Source of the DNA: Streptomyces sp. DvalAA-14
GTDB lineage: Bacteria; Actinomycetota; Actinomycetes; Streptomycetales; Streptomycetaceae
DNA length: 64,000 nucleotides
Assembly: GCF_900091855.1 (NCBI RefSeq)
Contig: NZ_FMCH01000560.1
Coordinates: forward strand, 1 to 64,000
Direction: 5' to 3'
The notes beneath the pieces are model-generated. The model had not been told where the DNA came from, did not search any database, and was given only the letters and a program-made list of their open reading frames with translations. The translations under genes and the position numbers were made by a program. This document shows, in pieces, positions 15,344 through 22,316 of this stretch; the first letter of the stretch is position 1, and each line of letters starts with the position of its first letter.

Positions 15344-18289
15344 ATGGAAACCAGGACGGAGCCGGGCGGCAGCCTGCGGTTCGCGGTCCTCGGCCCGGTT
15401 CGTGCCTGGCGCGGTGACGAACCGATCGGTACCGGCGCGCCCCAGCAGCGGGCGCTGCTCGCCGCGTTGCTGCTGCGCGGCGGACGCACCGCCACCGCGT
15501 CGGAGCTCCTCGACGCCGTGTGGGGTGAGAATCCGCCCAACACCGCACTGGCGGCGCTGCGTTCGTACGCGTTCCGGTTGCGCAAGGCGCTCGGCCCGAA
15601 GGCGCTGATCACCGATTCCGGTGGCTACGCGCTGCATGTGGCGACCGACGCGCTGGACAGCGCCGTGGTCGAGCGGCTGGCCGCCGAGGCGGACCGGCAG
15701 CGCGCCGCGGGTGATCCGGCACAGGCCCGCGAGTTGCTGGGCGCCGCGCTGGAGCAGTGGCACGGTGAGCCGCTGGCCGGACTGCCCGGCCCGTACGCGG
15801 AAACGCAGCGTTCCCGGCTGGCCGAGTGGCACATCGGGCTGATCGAGGCCCGCCTCGAACTGGACCTGGAGTTGGGCGCGCACGCCGAGGCGGTCTCCGA
15901 ACTCACCGCGCTGTCCGCCGACCACCCGCTGCGGGAGCGGCTGCGGGCGCTGCTGATGCTGGCCCTTTACCGCAGCGGCCGGCAGGCGGAGGCCCTCGGC
16001 GTCTACGCCGACACCCGGCGGCTGCTCGCCGACGAGTTGGGCATCGACCCGTCCGCCGAACTCGCCGAGCTCCACCAGCGCATCCTGGAGGCCGACCCGG
16101 GCCTGGCCGCCCCCGCCGGTACGGGCGCCGGCGCGCCGGAGGTGGTACGTCCGGCGCAACTGCCCGCCACTGTGGCCGACTTCACCGGCCGCGCTGCCTT
16201 CGTCGCGGAACTCGGCCAGCAGCTCGCCGAAGCGTCCGAGGGCAGAGGCGTGATGGCGGTCTCGGCGGTTGCGGGGATCGGCGGCGTCGGGAAGACCACC
16301 CTCGCGGTGCATGTCGCGCACGAGGCCCGGGATGCCTTCCCCGACGGCCAGTTGTACGTCGACCTGCAAGGCACCGACCCGCGCCCGGCCGAACCGGAGA
16401 CGGTGCTCGGCGGATTCCTGCGGGCGCTGGGCATCCCCAACCCCAGCATCCCCGACACGCTCGCCGAACGCGCGGCGCTCTACCGCTCCACCCTCGACAG
16501 CCGCCGGGTCCTGGTGCTGCTCGACAATGCCTACGACGCAGCGCAGGTGCGCAGCCTGCTGCCGGGCACGCCGGGGTGCGCCGCGCTGATCACCAGCCGG
16601 GTGCGGATGGTGGATCTGGCCGGCGCGCATCTGGTGGACCTCGATGTGATGTCGCCCGAGGAGGCGCTGAAACTCTTCACCAGGATCGTCGGCGAGGAGC
16701 GGGCCGGCAGCGAACGGCAGGCCGCACTCGATGTGGTGGGCGCCTGCGGCTTCCTGCCGCTGGCCATCCGGATCGCCGCGTCCCGGCTGGCGGCCCGCCG
16801 GACCTGGACCGTGTCCGTACTGGCCAACAAACTTGCCGACCAGCGGCGCCGGTTGGACGAGCTGCGGGCCGGCGACCTCGGGGTGAAGGCCACCTTCGCC
16901 CTCGGCTACGGCCACTTGTCCCCCGCCCAGGCCCGCGCCTTCCGGCTGCTGTCCCTGGCCGACGGCCCCGACATCTCGCTGGCCGCGGCGTCCGCCGTGC
17001 TGGACCTGGACCCGTACGCGACCGAGGAGTTGCTGGAGGCGTTGGTCGACATCAGCCTCATCGAATCGGCGGCTCCGGCCCGTTACCGCTTCCATGACCT
17101 GTTGCGGCTCTACGCGCGTGAATGTGCCGAACGCGACGAGACGGCCGATGCGCGCTGCCAGGCCCTGTCCCGGCAACTCGACTTCTACCTCGCCTCGGCC
17201 GCCGGGGCCTACGCGTTGGAGAATCCGGGCGACCGGATGCTGGAGCACCTGGCCGCGACCGCCCGGCCCGGGCTCGCCTTCGCCTCGCGCGAGGAGTCCC
17301 TGGAATGGCTGTTCTCGGAGGCCCAGGGACTGCTGGCCGCCGTACAGCAGGCGGCGGACGGCGGTTGCGAGGGTCCGATGCGGCGCGCGGTCGATCTGCT
17401 GCTGGCCGCCCAGGACTTGATGGAGTCCGGGGTCTACGCCCGCCAGTACGAGCAGGCCGCCCGAGCCCTGGTCGGCACCGCGCACGACTGCGGCGACCCG
17501 CTGGCCGAGGGCCGCGCCCGGGTGCTGGTGGCTCAACGGCTGCGCATGATGGGCCGCTTCGCCGACGCCGACGACGAGGCGCGCCGCGCGATGGTCGTCG
17601 GCCTGTCCGTCCAGGATCCGGTCACCTGCAGCTACGCCCCGAACCTGCGCGGCAGCATCGCCCACCACGCCCGGCGCTACGAGGACTGCGCCGAATACCA
17701 CCGGGCCGCGCTGGCCGCCTTCCGCGCCGACGGCAACCGGCACGGCGAGGCCTCGGCGCTCAGCAACCTGTCCCGGGCGCAGCTGAGCCTCGGCGACTCC
17801 GACGCCGCCGTGACCACCAGCGGGGAGGCGCTCGCCATCTACCGGGATCTCGGCGCCGGATTCCGGCTCGGCAACGGGCTGTACACCATGAGCATCCCCC
17901 TGACCGCGATCGGCCGGCTGGACGACGCGCACGCCTGTCTGACCGAGGCCCTGCAGATCTTCCGCGACTCCCGCCAGCAGTTCTGGGAGGGTGTCACCCT
18001 CTTCCGGCTCGCCGAGGCCCACTTGGCCTCGGGCCGGCAGCGCCAGTCGGCGTCGCACGCGGAGCAGGCCCTGGTCATTCTCCGTGAGGTGGGCGGCGAG
18101 TGGCGGACGGCCAACGCCCTGACCGTGCTGGGCCGGGCCCTTGCCGGGATGGGCCAGCTGGTGCGCGCGCACGCCTGCTGGCACGACGCGCTGGGCATCT
18201 ACTCGGCGCTCGATTCACCGGAGCGGCAAGCGGTGCAGCGGCTGCTCGGCGGCGGGGCCGCGCCGTCCGCCAGCTCACTGGCCGTCTGA
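15344..18289 (+). CDS. afsR: AfsR: SARP-type global transcriptional activator with ATPase and TPR domains
   Basis: The protein has 981 residues; ATG 15344 follows AGGGGGC. Domains in order: an OmpR-type winged helix (about 10-98, SELLDAVWG and YAFRLRKALG), the bacterial transcriptional activation domain (about 105-250), an NB-ARC/AP-ATPase with P-loop GIGGVGKTT (about 310-318) and VLVLLDNA, and C-terminal TPR repeats (about 600-960). Length and order match AfsR of Streptomyces coelicolor (993 residues). In that species AfsK phosphorylates AfsR on Ser/Thr, which enhances its binding to the afsS promoter and stimulates antibiotic production. The afsS and afsK genes follow here in the same order. 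Confidence 0.95.
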   Translation: METRTEPGGSLRFAVLGPVRAWRGDEPIGTGAPQQRALLAALLLRGGRTATASELLDAVWGENPPNTALAALRSYAFRLRKALGPKALITDSGGYALHVATDALDSAVVERLAAEADRQRAAGDPAQARELLGAALEQWHGEPLAGLPGPYAETQRSRLAEWHIGLIEARLELDLELGAHAEAVSELTALSADHPLRERLRALLMLALYRSGRQAEALGVYADTRRLLADELGIDPSAELAELHQRILEADPGLAAPAGTGAGAPEVVRPAQLPATVADFTGRAAFVAELGQQLAEASEGRGVMAVSAVAGIGGVGKTTLAVHVAHEARDAFPDGQLYVDLQGTDPRPAEPETVLGGFLRALGIPNPSIPDTLAERAALYRSTLDSRRVLVLLDNAYDAAQVRSLLPGTPGCAALITSRVRMVDLAGAHLVDLDVMSPEEALKLFTRIVGEERAGSERQAALDVVGACGFLPLAIRIAASRLAARRTWTVSVLANKLADQRRRLDELRAGDLGVKATFALGYGHLSPAQARAFRLLSLADGPDISLAAASAVLDLDPYATEELLEALVDISLIESAAPARYRFHDLLRLYARECAERDETADARCQALSRQLDFYLASAAGAYALENPGDRMLEHLAATARPGLAFASREESLEWLFSEAQGLLAAVQQAADGGCEGPMRRAVDLLLAAQDLMESGVYARQYEQAARALVGTAHDCGDPLAEGRARVLVAQRLRMMGRFADADDEARRAMVVGLSVQDPVTCSYAPNLRGSIAHHARRYEDCAEYHRAALAAFRADGNRHGEASALSNLSRAQLSLGDSDAAVTTSGEALAIYRDLGAGFRLGNGLYTMSIPLTAIGRLDDAHACLTEALQIFRDSRQQFWEGVTLFRLAEAHLASGRQRQSASHAEQALVILREVGGEWRTANALTVLGRALAGMGQLVRAHACWHDALGIYSALDSPERQAVQRLLGGGAAPSASSLAV

Positions 18290-18334
18290 CCTGGACCGAC
18301 CGGGCCCTGTGCGCAGCGCCGACCGGGCCGTCGG

Positions 18335-18375
18335 CGAACTCATCGCCGGCGTTTATCGGTTGATTATCGACGGCT
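18335..18375 (+). promoter_or_regulatory. Candidate AfsR operator/promoter region of afsS
   Basis: A run of three ATCG-containing half-sites (CTCATCG at 18339, TTTATCG at 18352, ATTATCG at 18363) lies in the 186-bp gap before afsS. The last two are exactly 11 bp apart, the spacing of SARP/OmpR-type direct repeats. This is the most AT-rich spot between afsR and afsS. AfsR is known to bind direct repeats overlapping the afsS -35 region in S. coelicolor; assignment here is by analogy. Confidence 0.45.
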
Positions 18376-18475
18376 GCCACGATTCCATCACAGCAAGCCG
18401 CCCGCTCGGTGAGGTACGGGGGACTTCACCGGGCGGGCCCCGCACAGCACGTCCCCAAGGCAACAGGAGAACGAG

Positions 18476-18679
18476 ATGAGCACCGAGATCCCGCCGACCG
18501 ACCCGACTGCTCCGGTCCCGCCCGTCACGCCGGCTCCTCCGAAGGAGGGCCCGGACAACTGGCACACCGACGGTACCGCCGAGGCCCCGGCCGACGGTCT
18601 GCTGACCGGCCAGCCGACGAAGAAGCCCGCGCAGGTCAAGCCGGACAACTGGCACACCGACTCCAAGCCCGCGGTCTGA
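18476..18679 (+). CDS. afsS: AfsS: small sigma-like regulatory protein
   Basis: The protein has 67 residues, with AGGAGA before the ATG. It is Pro/Thr-rich, without predicted globular or membrane segments. Its hallmark is the heptapeptide PDNWHTD, present twice (residues ~26-32 and ~55-61), each preceded by a basic/Pro stretch (PPKEG, AQVK). AfsS (63 residues in S. coelicolor) is the transcriptional target of AfsR and stimulates antibiotic biosynthesis by an unsettled mechanism. The position directly downstream of afsR, with its own regulatory gap and a strong terminator, supports the call. Confidence 0.93.
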   Translation: MSTEIPPTDPTAPVPPVTPAPPKEGPDNWHTDGTAEAPADGLLTGQPTKKPAQVKPDNWHTDSKPAV

Positions 18680-18740
18680 TCGACCGTCCGCGGCACGACC
18701 ACTCCAGGGCGGCGGGGTGCGCCTGGAGAGCACGACCCAC

Positions 18741-18796
18741 GGGGGGAACCGGGGGGCACGGGGGAAGCACGGGGGGAACGGGGGACCAGAGGGGGG
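18741..18796 (+). repeat. Decameric G-run array (potential G-quadruplex) in the afsS 3' region
   Basis: Six runs of five or six consecutive G lie at roughly 10-bp intervals (starting at 18741, 18751, 18760, 18771, 18780 and 18791), separated by AACC, CAC, AAGCAC, AAC and ACCAGA. This is a strong intramolecular G4 pattern on the coding strand, 60 bp after the afsS stop. Confidence 0.75.
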
Positions 18797-18809
18797 CGCC
18801 CGAGGGGAA

Positions 18810-18845
18810 CCGGTGGTCCTGTTCTTGGGGGAACAGGAGCACCGG
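18810..18845 (+). other. 15-bp stem-loop in the afsS 3' region
   Basis: CCGGTGGTCCTGTTC (18810-18824) and GAACAGGAGCACCGG (18831-18845) pair with one mismatch around a 6-nt loop. It lies between the G-run array and the terminator, so the afsS transcript would carry several strong structures. Confidence 0.6.
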
Positions 18846-18854
18846 TCGGGCCGG

Positions 18855-18907
18855 GAGGTGGTCGGCCGCAGCGCGGAGGGGGCGCTGCGGCCGACCACTT
18901 CCCTTTT
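18855..18907 (+). terminator. Strong rho-independent-type terminator of afsS
   Basis: The arms 18855-18874 and 18882-18901 form a 20-bp stem with only one G-T wobble and a 7-nt loop. The stem is followed by a five-T run (18903-18907). This is the clearest intrinsic terminator in the window. Confidence 0.9.
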
Positions 18908-19064
18908 TCCCTTGTGCCGCCGCTTTGAGCCCACTGCTTTGAGCCGCTGCTTTGAGCCGCTCCCTGCCTGCGCTTCGGGACTCGCCCCTCACTCCGCCGG
19001 AGGCGCCCACCTGGCAGCGGCAGCCGCCCGGACATAGCGTCGGCATGCGGGGGCCGGGCACGAT

Positions 19065-19862
19065 ATGAGGCGGTGGCAGCCCATGATCCGCAACATCCTG
19101 GCGACCCTCCTCGCGCTGATCGGAGCGGAAGCCGCCGTCTGGAGCCCCTTCCTCCCCTGGTACGGCGGCCGCAGCGGTTCCGACATCCGGGCGGACGACC
19201 TCGTCACGGGCGTCGGTGTCACATCGCACGACGCGGCGCTGCTCGGCTCCCTCTTCCTGCCGATGGGCTTCGCGGGGCTGCTCGCACTGCTGGGGATACT
19301 GATGCGCTCGCGGCTGGTGACCGCCGCGGCCGGGGTGCTGGTGCTCGGGACGACCGTGCTGTGGATGGTGCGGCAGGCGCTGTATTCGCACGCGCTCACC
19401 GCGGGCGGCAACGGGCTGGACACCGGGGTGGCCACCGCGGTGGCCGGCGGTCTGCTGCTCCTGGCGGCCACCTCCCTGCTGCCGGGCCGCCGCCCGCGCC
19501 CGTACACCGAACCCGCCGTGCTCCACGACTCCGTGACGCCGTACGACCCGGATGTCGCCGGCAGCCCGGCGGTCTCGTACGAGCCGGAGTTCTCGTACGA
19601 CCAGACGGCTCCGTACAACCCGGCGATCTCCTACAGCCCGGCGCTTGCGCCCGGCGACCCGCCGCTCGGGTACGACTCCGCGCCACCGTACGACTCCGCG
19701 CCGCCCTACGGCGCCGCGGGCTCCTACGACGCCGCGAGCCCGTACGACACCGCGGTCCCCTACGATCCCGCGGGGCCGGACGGCGAGCCGACGATCCGGG
19801 GGGCCACGGTGGCTCCGCCCCCGTCGTACGGCCCGGACCCGACGCCGCCGCCGGGGAGCTGA
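19065..19862 (+). CDS. Membrane protein with hexapeptide Tyr-Asp-rich tail, between afsS and afsK
   Basis: The protein has up to 265 residues. ATG 19065 is the longest choice; ATG 19083 (six residues later) has a better purine-rich leader and may be the true start. Residues 8-28, 64-85, 88-106 and 124-144 are hydrophobic, suggesting four membrane helices. The last ~110 residues are a disordered tail with repeated PYD/SYD motifs, of which the final third forms hexads such as YDSAPP, YGAAGS, YDAASP, YDTAVP and YDPAGP. A membrane protein gene also lies between afsS and afsK in S. coelicolor. Its function is unknown. Confidence 0.8.
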   Translation: MRRWQPMIRNILATLLALIGAEAAVWSPFLPWYGGRSGSDIRADDLVTGVGVTSHDAALLGSLFLPMGFAGLLALLGILMRSRLVTAAAGVLVLGTTVLWMVRQALYSHALTAGGNGLDTGVATAVAGGLLLLAATSLLPGRRPRPYTEPAVLHDSVTPYDPDVAGSPAVSYEPEFSYDQTAPYNPAISYSPALAPGDPPLGYDSAPPYDSAPPYGAAGSYDAASPYDTAVPYDPAGPDGEPTIRGATVAPPPSYGPDPTPPPGS

Positions 19863-19889: not shown

Positions 19890-22316
19890 TCAGGCGCGAC
19901 GCGAGGTCGCGCCGGTGCCCTTGGCGGCGTCCAGCGCGTAGACGCAGCGGTCCTTGGAGCAGGCGTAGACCACACCCTCGGCGGCCACCGGTGATCCGGT
20001 GATCTCGCCGCCGGTCTCCAGCCGCCAGCGCAGCTGACCGCCTTGGGCGTCCACCGTGTAGAGGCAGTGGTCCTTGGAGCCGAAGTGCACCCGGCCCTCG
20101 GCGACCGCGGGTGAACCGACGACCTCGCCCTGCGCCGCGAACCGCCAGCGCGGGGTGCCGCTCACCGCGTCCAGCGTGTACAGGGCGCTGCCGGCTCCCA
20201 GGTGCACCGCCCCGGCCGCCACTACCACCGGCTCGACCGATTGGCGCGGCTCGGTGGCGACCCGCCAGCGGTCCCGGCCGTCGGACGGGTCCAGGGCGTA
20301 GACCGTGCCGAGATGGTCGGCGACGTAGATGCCACCGCCGGACGCCACGGGCCCGGGCACGTGCACGGGTGGCGCGAACATCACCGCCGGCGCGTCGAAG
20401 TGCCAGCGCTCGGCGCCGCTGCGGGCGTCGAGCGCCAGCACCCGGGTGCCGGCGGTCAGATAGGCGATCCCGTCGGCGACGACCGGGCGGGTCGGCACCG
20501 AACCGGCGGCGCCGGGCTCGCCCACCGGGTGGGACCACTGCTCGGAACCGGTCAGCGCGTCCACCGCGTAGAGGCGGCCGCCGCCCTGGTAGTAGACGGT
20601 GCGGTCGATGACGGTCGGCCCGGAGTCGGGTGACTCGAAGCCGGTCTGGGCTCCGCCGCGCTCCCAGCGCAGATTGCCGCGGTGCGCGTCCCACGCCTGG
20701 ACGCCGCCGCCACGGGTGCCGCTGACGACCGTGCCGGCGTCGGCCCGGACCGCGTAGACCCATCCGTCGATCGGGTTGCGCCAGCGCTCGCTGCCGTCGG
20801 CGGAGTCCAGCGCGAACAGGCTGGGCCCGTCGGAGGCGTGGATCCGGCCGTCGCGGACCGCCATCGTCCAGGCGACGTCGCGGGTCTTGAACTGGCGGCG
20901 GCCGCTGGCCACATCGAGCGCGTGCACCTCGAAGGAGGTGACGTAGAGCAGGCCGTCGGAGACGACCGGGGTGCCCCATACGTCGTTGGACATGCGGAAA
21001 CGCCAGGGGCGCCACTCGCCGGGGGGAGCGATGGGCGGCGCCGGGGCCGGAGCGGGCACCGACTCTCCCGCGCGGTGGGCGCCTGCCCGGTGGCGGACCC
21101 ACTCGGTGCCGGGAGCGGCGCCGGCCGCCGCGCGGTGCCGAGTGGCCGCGGCGACCCGCAGCCCCGGGCCGATCGGGGCCGAACCGGCCAGTTGGACGGG
21201 CACGGCTTCGGACTCCTGGCGCTGGCTGTCCCTGCCGTGCGCGGGGCCGCTGCGAGGCGCCTGTACCGGCCGGGGCGGCGACTGCGGTGGCGGCGGTACG
21301 TTGATCGGCACCTGCGGGCCCGGGAGCTGGGGGGCCGGGAGTTGAGGACCCGGCGGCTGCGGGCCGGGGGGCTGCGGGCCGGCCGCGTGGGCCCCGCGTC
21401 CGGCGGCCGGTACCGCGGGGCGGCCGCTGCGGCGCTGCTCTATCAGCGCCACCGCGGCGGGCGGCAGCCAGGCGGAGGCGGTGCCGGTGTCGTCGCCACC
21501 GGAGGAGAACAGGTGCGGGGCGAGCTGCGCCTGCAGATCGGCCGGGGTGGGCCGGCGCTCGGCCTCCATCCGCATGCAGGACTCGATGAGCGGCCGCAGC
21601 TCGTCGGGCAGCCCGGCCAGATCGGGGCCTTCCCGCAGCAGCATGAACACGGTCTCGACCGGGTTGGCGCCGTGGAAGGGGGCGTGGCCGGTGGCGGCGA
21701 AGACCAGGGTGGAGCCGAGCGAGAAGATGTCGCTGGCGCCGCGCACGCTCCGGGAGTCGCGCGCCTGCTCGGGGGACATGTAGGCGGGGGTGCCGACCGC
21801 GACATTGGTCATCGTCAGCCGGGTGTTGGAGACACCGGAGGCGATGCCGAAGTCGATGACCCGGGGGCCGTCCTCGACCACCAGCACATTGGACGGCTTC
21901 ATGTCGCGGTGCACCAGGCCGGCGGCGTGGATGGACTGCAGCGCCTCGGCGATGCCCGCGGCGAGCCACCGTACGGCCTGGGCGGGCATCGGCCCCGACT
22001 CGTTGACGATCTCTTCCAGGGACGGGGCGGGAACGTAGGCGGTGGCGAGCCACGGCACGGCCGCGCGCGGGTCGGCGTCGACGACGGCGGCGGTGTAGAA
22101 ACCGGAGACCGCGCGGGCCGCTTCGACTTCACGCGTGAACCGGACCCGGAAGAGCTGGTCCTCGGCCAGTTCGGCGCGTACGGTCTTGATCGCCACCCGG
22201 CGGCCGGAGGCCGAGCGGGCGAGATAGACCAGCCCCATGCCGCCGGCGCCGAGCCGTCCCAGCACCTCGAAAGGGCCGATCCGCCTCGGGTCGTGCTGCG
22301 TCAGCTGCTCCATCAT
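19890..22316 (-). CDS. afsK: AfsK: Ser/Thr protein kinase with PQQ-type beta-propeller
   Basis: The protein has 808 residues. The N-terminal kinase domain (about 14-270) has the glycine loop GAGGMGLVY (23-31), catalytic-pair Lys44 (VAIK), HRDMKPSN (136-143), DFG (155-157) and GTPAYMSPE (175-183). A Pro-rich linker (about 290-400) precedes seven or so W-containing strands typical of PQQ/pyrrolo-quinoline propellers (for example RWRFAAQGEVVGSPAVAEG) up to the C-terminus. No transmembrane helix is evident; AfsK associates with the membrane inner face in S. coelicolor. There it autophosphorylates, is inhibited by KbpA and phosphorylates AfsR; it also acts on polar-growth protein DivIVA. Convergent with the preceding membrane-protein gene. 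Confidence 0.95.
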   Translation of the reverse strand: MMEQLTQHDPRRIGPFEVLGRLGAGGMGLVYLARSASGRRVAIKTVRAELAEDQLFRVRFTREVEAARAVSGFYTAAVVDADPRAAVPWLATAYVPAPSLEEIVNESGPMPAQAVRWLAAGIAEALQSIHAAGLVHRDMKPSNVLVVEDGPRVIDFGIASGVSNTRLTMTNVAVGTPAYMSPEQARDSRSVRGASDIFSLGSTLVFAATGHAPFHGANPVETVFMLLREGPDLAGLPDELRPLIESCMRMEAERRPTPADLQAQLAPHLFSSGGDDTGTASAWLPPAAVALIEQRRSGRPAVPAAGRGAHAAGPQPPGPQPPGPQLPAPQLPGPQVPINVPPPPQSPPRPVQAPRSGPAHGRDSQRQESEAVPVQLAGSAPIGPGLRVAAATRHRAAAGAAPGTEWVRHRAGAHRAGESVPAPAPAPPIAPPGEWRPWRFRMSNDVWGTPVVSDGLLYVTSFEVHALDVASGRRQFKTRDVAWTMAVRDGRIHASDGPSLFALDSADGSERWRNPIDGWVYAVRADAGTVVSGTRGGGVQAWDAHRGNLRWERGGAQTGFESPDSGPTVIDRTVYYQGGGRLYAVDALTGSEQWSHPVGEPGAAGSVPTRPVVADGIAYLTAGTRVLALDARSGAERWHFDAPAVMFAPPVHVPGPVASGGGIYVADHLGTVYALDPSDGRDRWRVATEPRQSVEPVVVAAGAVHLGAGSALYTLDAVSGTPRWRFAAQGEVVGSPAVAEGRVHFGSKDHCLYTVDAQGGQLRWRLETGGEITGSPVAAEGVVYACSKDRCVYALDAAKGTGATSRRA

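Follow-up and report, generated by a model that had tools for sequence, protein, structure and literature searches.

G-run sites on the afsS and sigQ transcripts of Streptomycetaceae as candidate docking sites for a C-rich-loop small RNA

The AfsR-AfsS pair acts as a central switch for antibiotic production, and the small afsS gene is followed by a dense succession of G-runs and stem-loops. Do these structures serve only the 3' end of the mRNA, or do they act on a partner elsewhere? We examined this question by computational analysis of a 64,000-nt stretch of the genome of Streptomyces sp. DvalAA-14 (the window) and of related genomes. The gene afsR (15344-18289, plus strand) encodes a SARP/NB-ARC/TPR regulator, recognized by a match to NCBIfam equivalog NF053617 above its cut-off and by the Pfam domains BTAD, NB-ARC, and TPR. 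The gene afsS (18476-18679, plus strand) encodes a 67-aa product with two PDNWHTD repeats, which matched no Pfam or NCBIfam family and was assigned by its position 3' of afsR and by its homologues; as a query for related loci AfsS retrieved zero relatives, and AfsR served as the query instead. A probable afs box of two 11-bp repeats with a -10 element (CACGAT) can be read at 18351-18383 on the plus strand, and comparison with the layout of the afsS promoter described in PMC10936776 suggests that transcription of afsS probably starts near 18390. A Ser/Thr kinase gene with PQQ beta-propeller repeats (19890-22316) lies nearby.

The region 3' of afsS is densely structured. The six G5-6 runs expected from the original prediction are present at 18741-18746, 18751-18756, 18760-18764, 18771-18776, 18780-18784, and 18791-18796, and together with a G4 run at 18804-18807 they form a conserved array (18741-18808, plus strand), beyond which G5 runs recur at 18827-18831 and 18878-18882. 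Their steps of 10, 9, 11, 9, and 11 nt agree with the "decameric" spacing proposed for this copy, but the description does not extend to the family, where steps vary widely around a mode of 8-12 nt. The array is followed on the same strand by a hairpin at 18809-18846, whose arms (18809-18824 and 18831-18846) span 16 nt at 94% complementarity where 15 bp had been noted and which carries G5 (18827-18831) at its loop. The terminator (18853-18909, plus strand) is likewise real and slightly longer than the 20-bp stem first described: the arms of its stem-loop (18853-18903), at 18853-18874 and 18882-18903, are 22 nt long and 95% complementary, the loop is CGGAGGGGG with G5 at 18878-18882, and the predicted T-run follows as CC and T5, within 2 nt 3' of the stem. 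It is the only terminator-like site in 18290-19100. A further small hairpin, missed at first, is predicted 5' of the array at about 18702-18729 on the plus strand. Dinucleotide shuffles of 18690-18920 fold at -114.8 kcal/mol, whereas the native sequence reaches -144.6 (z -6.9, 0/200 as good). The window maximum of G>=5 runs, seven per 120 nt, is found at the afsS 3' region; in 100 Markov-1 versions of the window, the maximum averaged 3.3 and never exceeded 5. An Rfam scan of 18200-19200 gave no match over the gathering score, only weak chance matches to miRNA hairpins, all far below it. On inspection, the array is unlikely to be coding sequence, because its runs do not recur in multiples of three and vary in number. 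Directly 3' of the terminator, at 18912-18961, lies a tandem repeat of 3.8 copies with a 13-14-nt unit (CCGCTGCTTTGAGC-like).

To what extent is the array kept in relatives? The genus set comprised 35 genomes (records named Actinacidiphila), all 35 with AfsR, and 60 more loci represented eight further genera of the family, with one genus, taken as Streptomyces, supplying 50; a second afsR-like locus in one genome (L053 in G028, no array) was omitted from all counts. All 35 genus genomes carry G>=4 runs after afsS, 3 to 12 of them starting within 120 nt and usually 5-12, so the array is not absent from close relatives and the expected conservation holds. Runs were then counted over the 200 nt before the terminator at the 80 loci where one was recognized, leaving out 2/35 genus, 11/50 Streptomyces, and 2/10 other loci without a recognized terminator. 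Genus loci have on average 7.2 G>=5 runs, with at least three at 30/33, and loci of the other genera range from none to 14, with no G5 run at 21/39 Streptomyces loci. Strand bias is complete across the 80 loci, with 354 sense G>=5 runs versus 0 C>=5 runs. Four G5 tracts are not kept across relatives: 37 of the 80 loci have three G5 runs or fewer, shorter G-runs being uncounted. Beyond afsS, a threefold GGGGGA pattern occurred 285 times in the 35 genus genomes versus 87 times reversed, and the pair pattern ACGGGGGA..ACGGGGGA occurred 121 times (8 reversed) in the same genomes and 406 times (37 reversed) in 61 Streptomyces genomes. Among the first pattern matches per genome, 22/52 lay in predicted coding sequences by a simple ORF rule (10 sense, 12 antisense), so the motif is not solely a 3' element; 22 of the 30 non-coding first matches sit 3' of a sense gene. 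Other intergenic ACGGGGGA arrays were seen at L224, L232 (3' of a CBM_4_9/fn3 protein gene), L231/L233, L235, and L237, mostly 3' of genes that are secreted-enzyme-like or of unknown type, and may be further members of the set.

The G-runs are not confined to the 3' end of afsS. A leader hairpin at 18400-18438 on the plus strand, about 10 nt past the probable transcription start, presents G5 (18418-18422) in an ACGGGGG loop and covaries among homologues. Across Streptomycetaceae the afsS mRNA bears two G5-loop hairpins, one near the 5' end and one that is the terminator; an automated rule found the 5' hairpin at 90/95 loci (a few rows misassigned, e.g., L118) and a GAGGGG-type terminator loop at 80/95 (some rows misassigned). 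For covariation of the 5' stem we used two hand-anchored sets of 42 and 45 loci, in which one row (L124) probably represents a terminator. The loop run is exactly G5 in 86/87, and paired cells amount to 98.2% (42 loci) and 88.0% (45 loci), far better than in slid registers. Double changes occur in 8/14 and 12/13 pairs, more than in all 500 shuffles, which leave relatedness in. Among strong hairpins, 153/242 in the 95 afsS segments carry G5 at the loop, versus 0/105 in control DNA taken at 30 other loci with 6C RNA masked; the unmasked control gave 30/165, from the antisense of 6C. In the window, only the two hairpins flanking afsS, among 51 on both strands, have a G5 loop. Some Streptomyces leaders have, past the afs box and before the main 5' hairpin, an extra hairpin whose loop is GCGTCGGGGGGCA (L113 at about 300-330, and others). 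In S. coelicolor, an unexplained transcript between afsR and afsR2 (that is, afsS) is mentioned as possible riboswitching in PMC4681348, and a separate leader RNA with the 5' hairpin would fit it. This RNA feature of afsS is real, conserved, and confined to one strand, and it extends beyond what the original prediction saw.

The same motif marks a second regulator gene. Eleven of 20 hand-picked ACGGGGGA clusters lay at one gene, which encodes an ECF sigma factor of the SigE family and is divergent from a gene for an OmpR-type response regulator. We take the sigma factor gene to be sigQ, beside afsQ1; the neighboring response regulator reached no equivalog cut-off. Our sigQ counts cover 33 loci (25 genus, 8 Streptomyces), with L294-L298 unparsed and five further genus matches lacking a locus. 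At all 32 loci with a recognized start, a G4-6 run lies no more than 20 nt before it, at the ribosome-binding site, and a 3' array of 2-10 runs is present at 31/33 loci (none at two), often with a G-loop terminator. In the window's own genome, GACGGGGGCGGGAAAATG lies at the sigQ start, and past the stop come three G5-6 runs and a G5-loop hairpin. In many Streptomyces, G-runs also lie inside an unconserved linker of the sigQ coding region; at L220-L227, G5A runs recur in variable N-terminal linker codons, as though conservation acted on the RNA rather than on the protein. A literature search combining SCO4425 with "small RNA" found no match.

Could the whole feature be an ordinary strong 3' end, a terminator with drifting G-rich repeats and no partner in trans? 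Repeat numbers do vary, tandem slippage is plausible, and at L226 a 29-G run stands 3' of sigQ, perhaps from slippage inside the array or as an assembly feature. However, the complete strand bias, the A that tends to follow the runs (see below), the covarying G5-loop hairpins, and the recurrence at sigQ make this explanation very improbable. The constant feature is GGGGG(G) in a loop or single strand, mostly with A as the next base, and because it occurs at both ends of the afsS mRNA and on the sigQ mRNA, it points to RNA pairing in trans rather than to a local 3'-end property. The afsS structures themselves point to RNA.

Which partner might read these sites? The 6C RNA is a candidate on account of its loops. 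The window's own genome encodes a 6C RNA (G000:C481:85675-85751; 54.1 bits against a 47-bit cut-off), and among 101 family genomes 99 had a match at E<=0.001 and 71 exceeded the cut-off. In all 30 loci inspected, both 6C loops consist of U followed by C6-8 (5'-UCCCCCC(C)), which predicts a G-run followed by A and an unconstrained base before it. The flanking bases match this prediction: A directly follows the run in 238/330 cases in afsS arrays and 133/180 in sigQ 3' arrays versus 36/134 in the rest of the window (p values of 5e-19 and 1e-16, both too small because the rows are related), whereas C directly before the run is not enriched (232/330 in afsS arrays versus 92/134 in the window, p 0.74). 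The own 3' region contains five G5A sites against a shuffle mean of 1.6 and maximum of 5, the 33 genus loci average 4.9 against 1.8, and the afsS 3' region is complementary to the C-rich 6C loop over at least 6 nt. G-runs have a predicted unpaired probability of 0.54 versus 0.44 with permuted spacers, the value being higher at 26/30. Either loop of B11/6C from M. abscessus pairs with a G6 tract at a ribosome-binding site, as compensatory mutations showed (PMC10470900). For Streptomyces, our literature searches found no target of 6C, nor any match linking afsS with 6C. We tentatively propose that the afsS mRNA offers its array and its loop G-runs as multiple docking or decoy sites for an sRNA with C-rich loops, most likely 6C, and give this reading close to an even chance.

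Several results count against 6C. The 6C loops gave no better predicted duplex with the own 3' region than with dinucleotide shuffles, which preserve GG steps (-26.2 versus -28.5 and -24.8 versus -27.7), and the mean unpaired probability of the sites is only the above 0.54. The base after G5 in the genus 5' loops is mostly T, not A, and 21/39 Streptomyces loci, as noted, have no G5 run. A personal communication quoted in PMC8539372 reports that mutating scr3558 (6C) left the physiology of S. coelicolor unaffected. That report would suit the same RNA-RNA mechanism with another C-rich-loop sRNA as partner, such as scr5583 or scr1434, both highly expressed in Streptomyces and predicted to have C-rich loops according to PMC3765725; as the 6C loops already predict the flank, we consider such a substitute partner improbable.

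The fold energy also counts against 6C and raises the prospect that the array acts as an RNA G-quadruplex that stabilizes the 3' end or modulates termination. The array is indeed G4-capable, as had been proposed: with quadruplexes allowed, ViennaRNA gave -169.8 versus -134.8 kcal/mol for the own 3' region, 35 kcal/mol deeper, and the own copy has the requisite four or more close G5-6 tracts with short A/C-rich spacers. Nevertheless, the single G5 loops, the G-run at the sigQ ribosome-binding site, and the array-less Streptomyces loci cannot be intramolecular quadruplexes, and a quadruplex needs no A after each run, which leaves this explanation unlikely in our judgment. A platform for some RNA-binding protein that recognizes a GGGGGA-type motif, in the manner of CsrB and CsrA, seems similarly unlikely: the motif repeats in loops and single strands and a G-run sits at the sigQ ribosome-binding site, as in the Csr layout, but no candidate protein was identified, the base before the run is unconstrained, and CsrA was found in 0/35 genus genomes versus 3/14 control genomes. 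The absence of CsrA from the genus set takes a literal Csr system at afsS out of consideration, though not an unknown Csr-like protein.

Docking of 6C on afsS and sigQ can be put as a mechanism. Sites of GGGGG or GGGGGG, usually followed by A, would pair with the C-rich 6C loops, and we infer that 6C may pair with the G-run sites of both transcripts in the cell. Pairing at the sigQ ribosome-binding site may repress translation, as has been shown for 6C/B11 in one mycobacterium, and the 3' arrays might titrate 6C, such that induced afsS and sigQ transcripts would relieve themselves and other targets. Extended to the family, the proposal becomes a circuit in which afsS and sigQ G-runs kiss both 6C loops and their induction sponges 6C and reprograms the 6C regulon, a version that is conceivable but that we regard as doubtful.

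How do these sites compare with known systems? As in 6C (Rfam RF01066; B11 in mycobacteria), the C-rich loops are complementary to G5-6, and the G-run at the sigQ ribosome-binding site resembles eccB4 of M. abscessus (PMC10470900). Unlike known 6C targets, the antibiotic-regulator mRNAs of afsS and sigQ offer many putative sites, which are placed in 3' arrays or at the apex of dedicated hairpins. The CsrB/RsmZ decoy RNAs expose numerous short G-rich sites, looped or single-stranded, with the motif at the ribosome-binding site of the target; afsS has such sites in the same contexts and sigQ has the motif at its ribosome-binding site, but CsrA is absent, the sites lie on protein-coding mRNAs, and the motif is G5-6A rather than ANGGA. 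In mRNA-borne sRNA sponges of enterobacteria, such as the chbBC-ChiX pair, a transcript titrates an sRNA by base pairing. The afsS array likewise has multiple conserved sites outside the ribosome-binding site, and its transcript could titrate an sRNA in this way; it differs as a multi-site array at two regulator genes with putative titration. A 3' UTR-derived sRNA has been described near sodF (PMC3765725); the afsS 3' end shares the strong structure and could in principle yield such an sRNA or serve mRNA stability or processing, as the original prediction suggested. The afsS array would work like known sRNA-target and sponge systems, of which it is a candidate member.

If the proposal is correct, a conserved, loop-matched link would give the afsS and sigQ regulators and 6C a directly testable partner, and overexpression of afsS together with its untranslated regions might exert part of its effect through RNA. 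The G-runs that fit the 6C loops suggest a possible layer of RNA-RNA control in antibiotic-producing bacteria.
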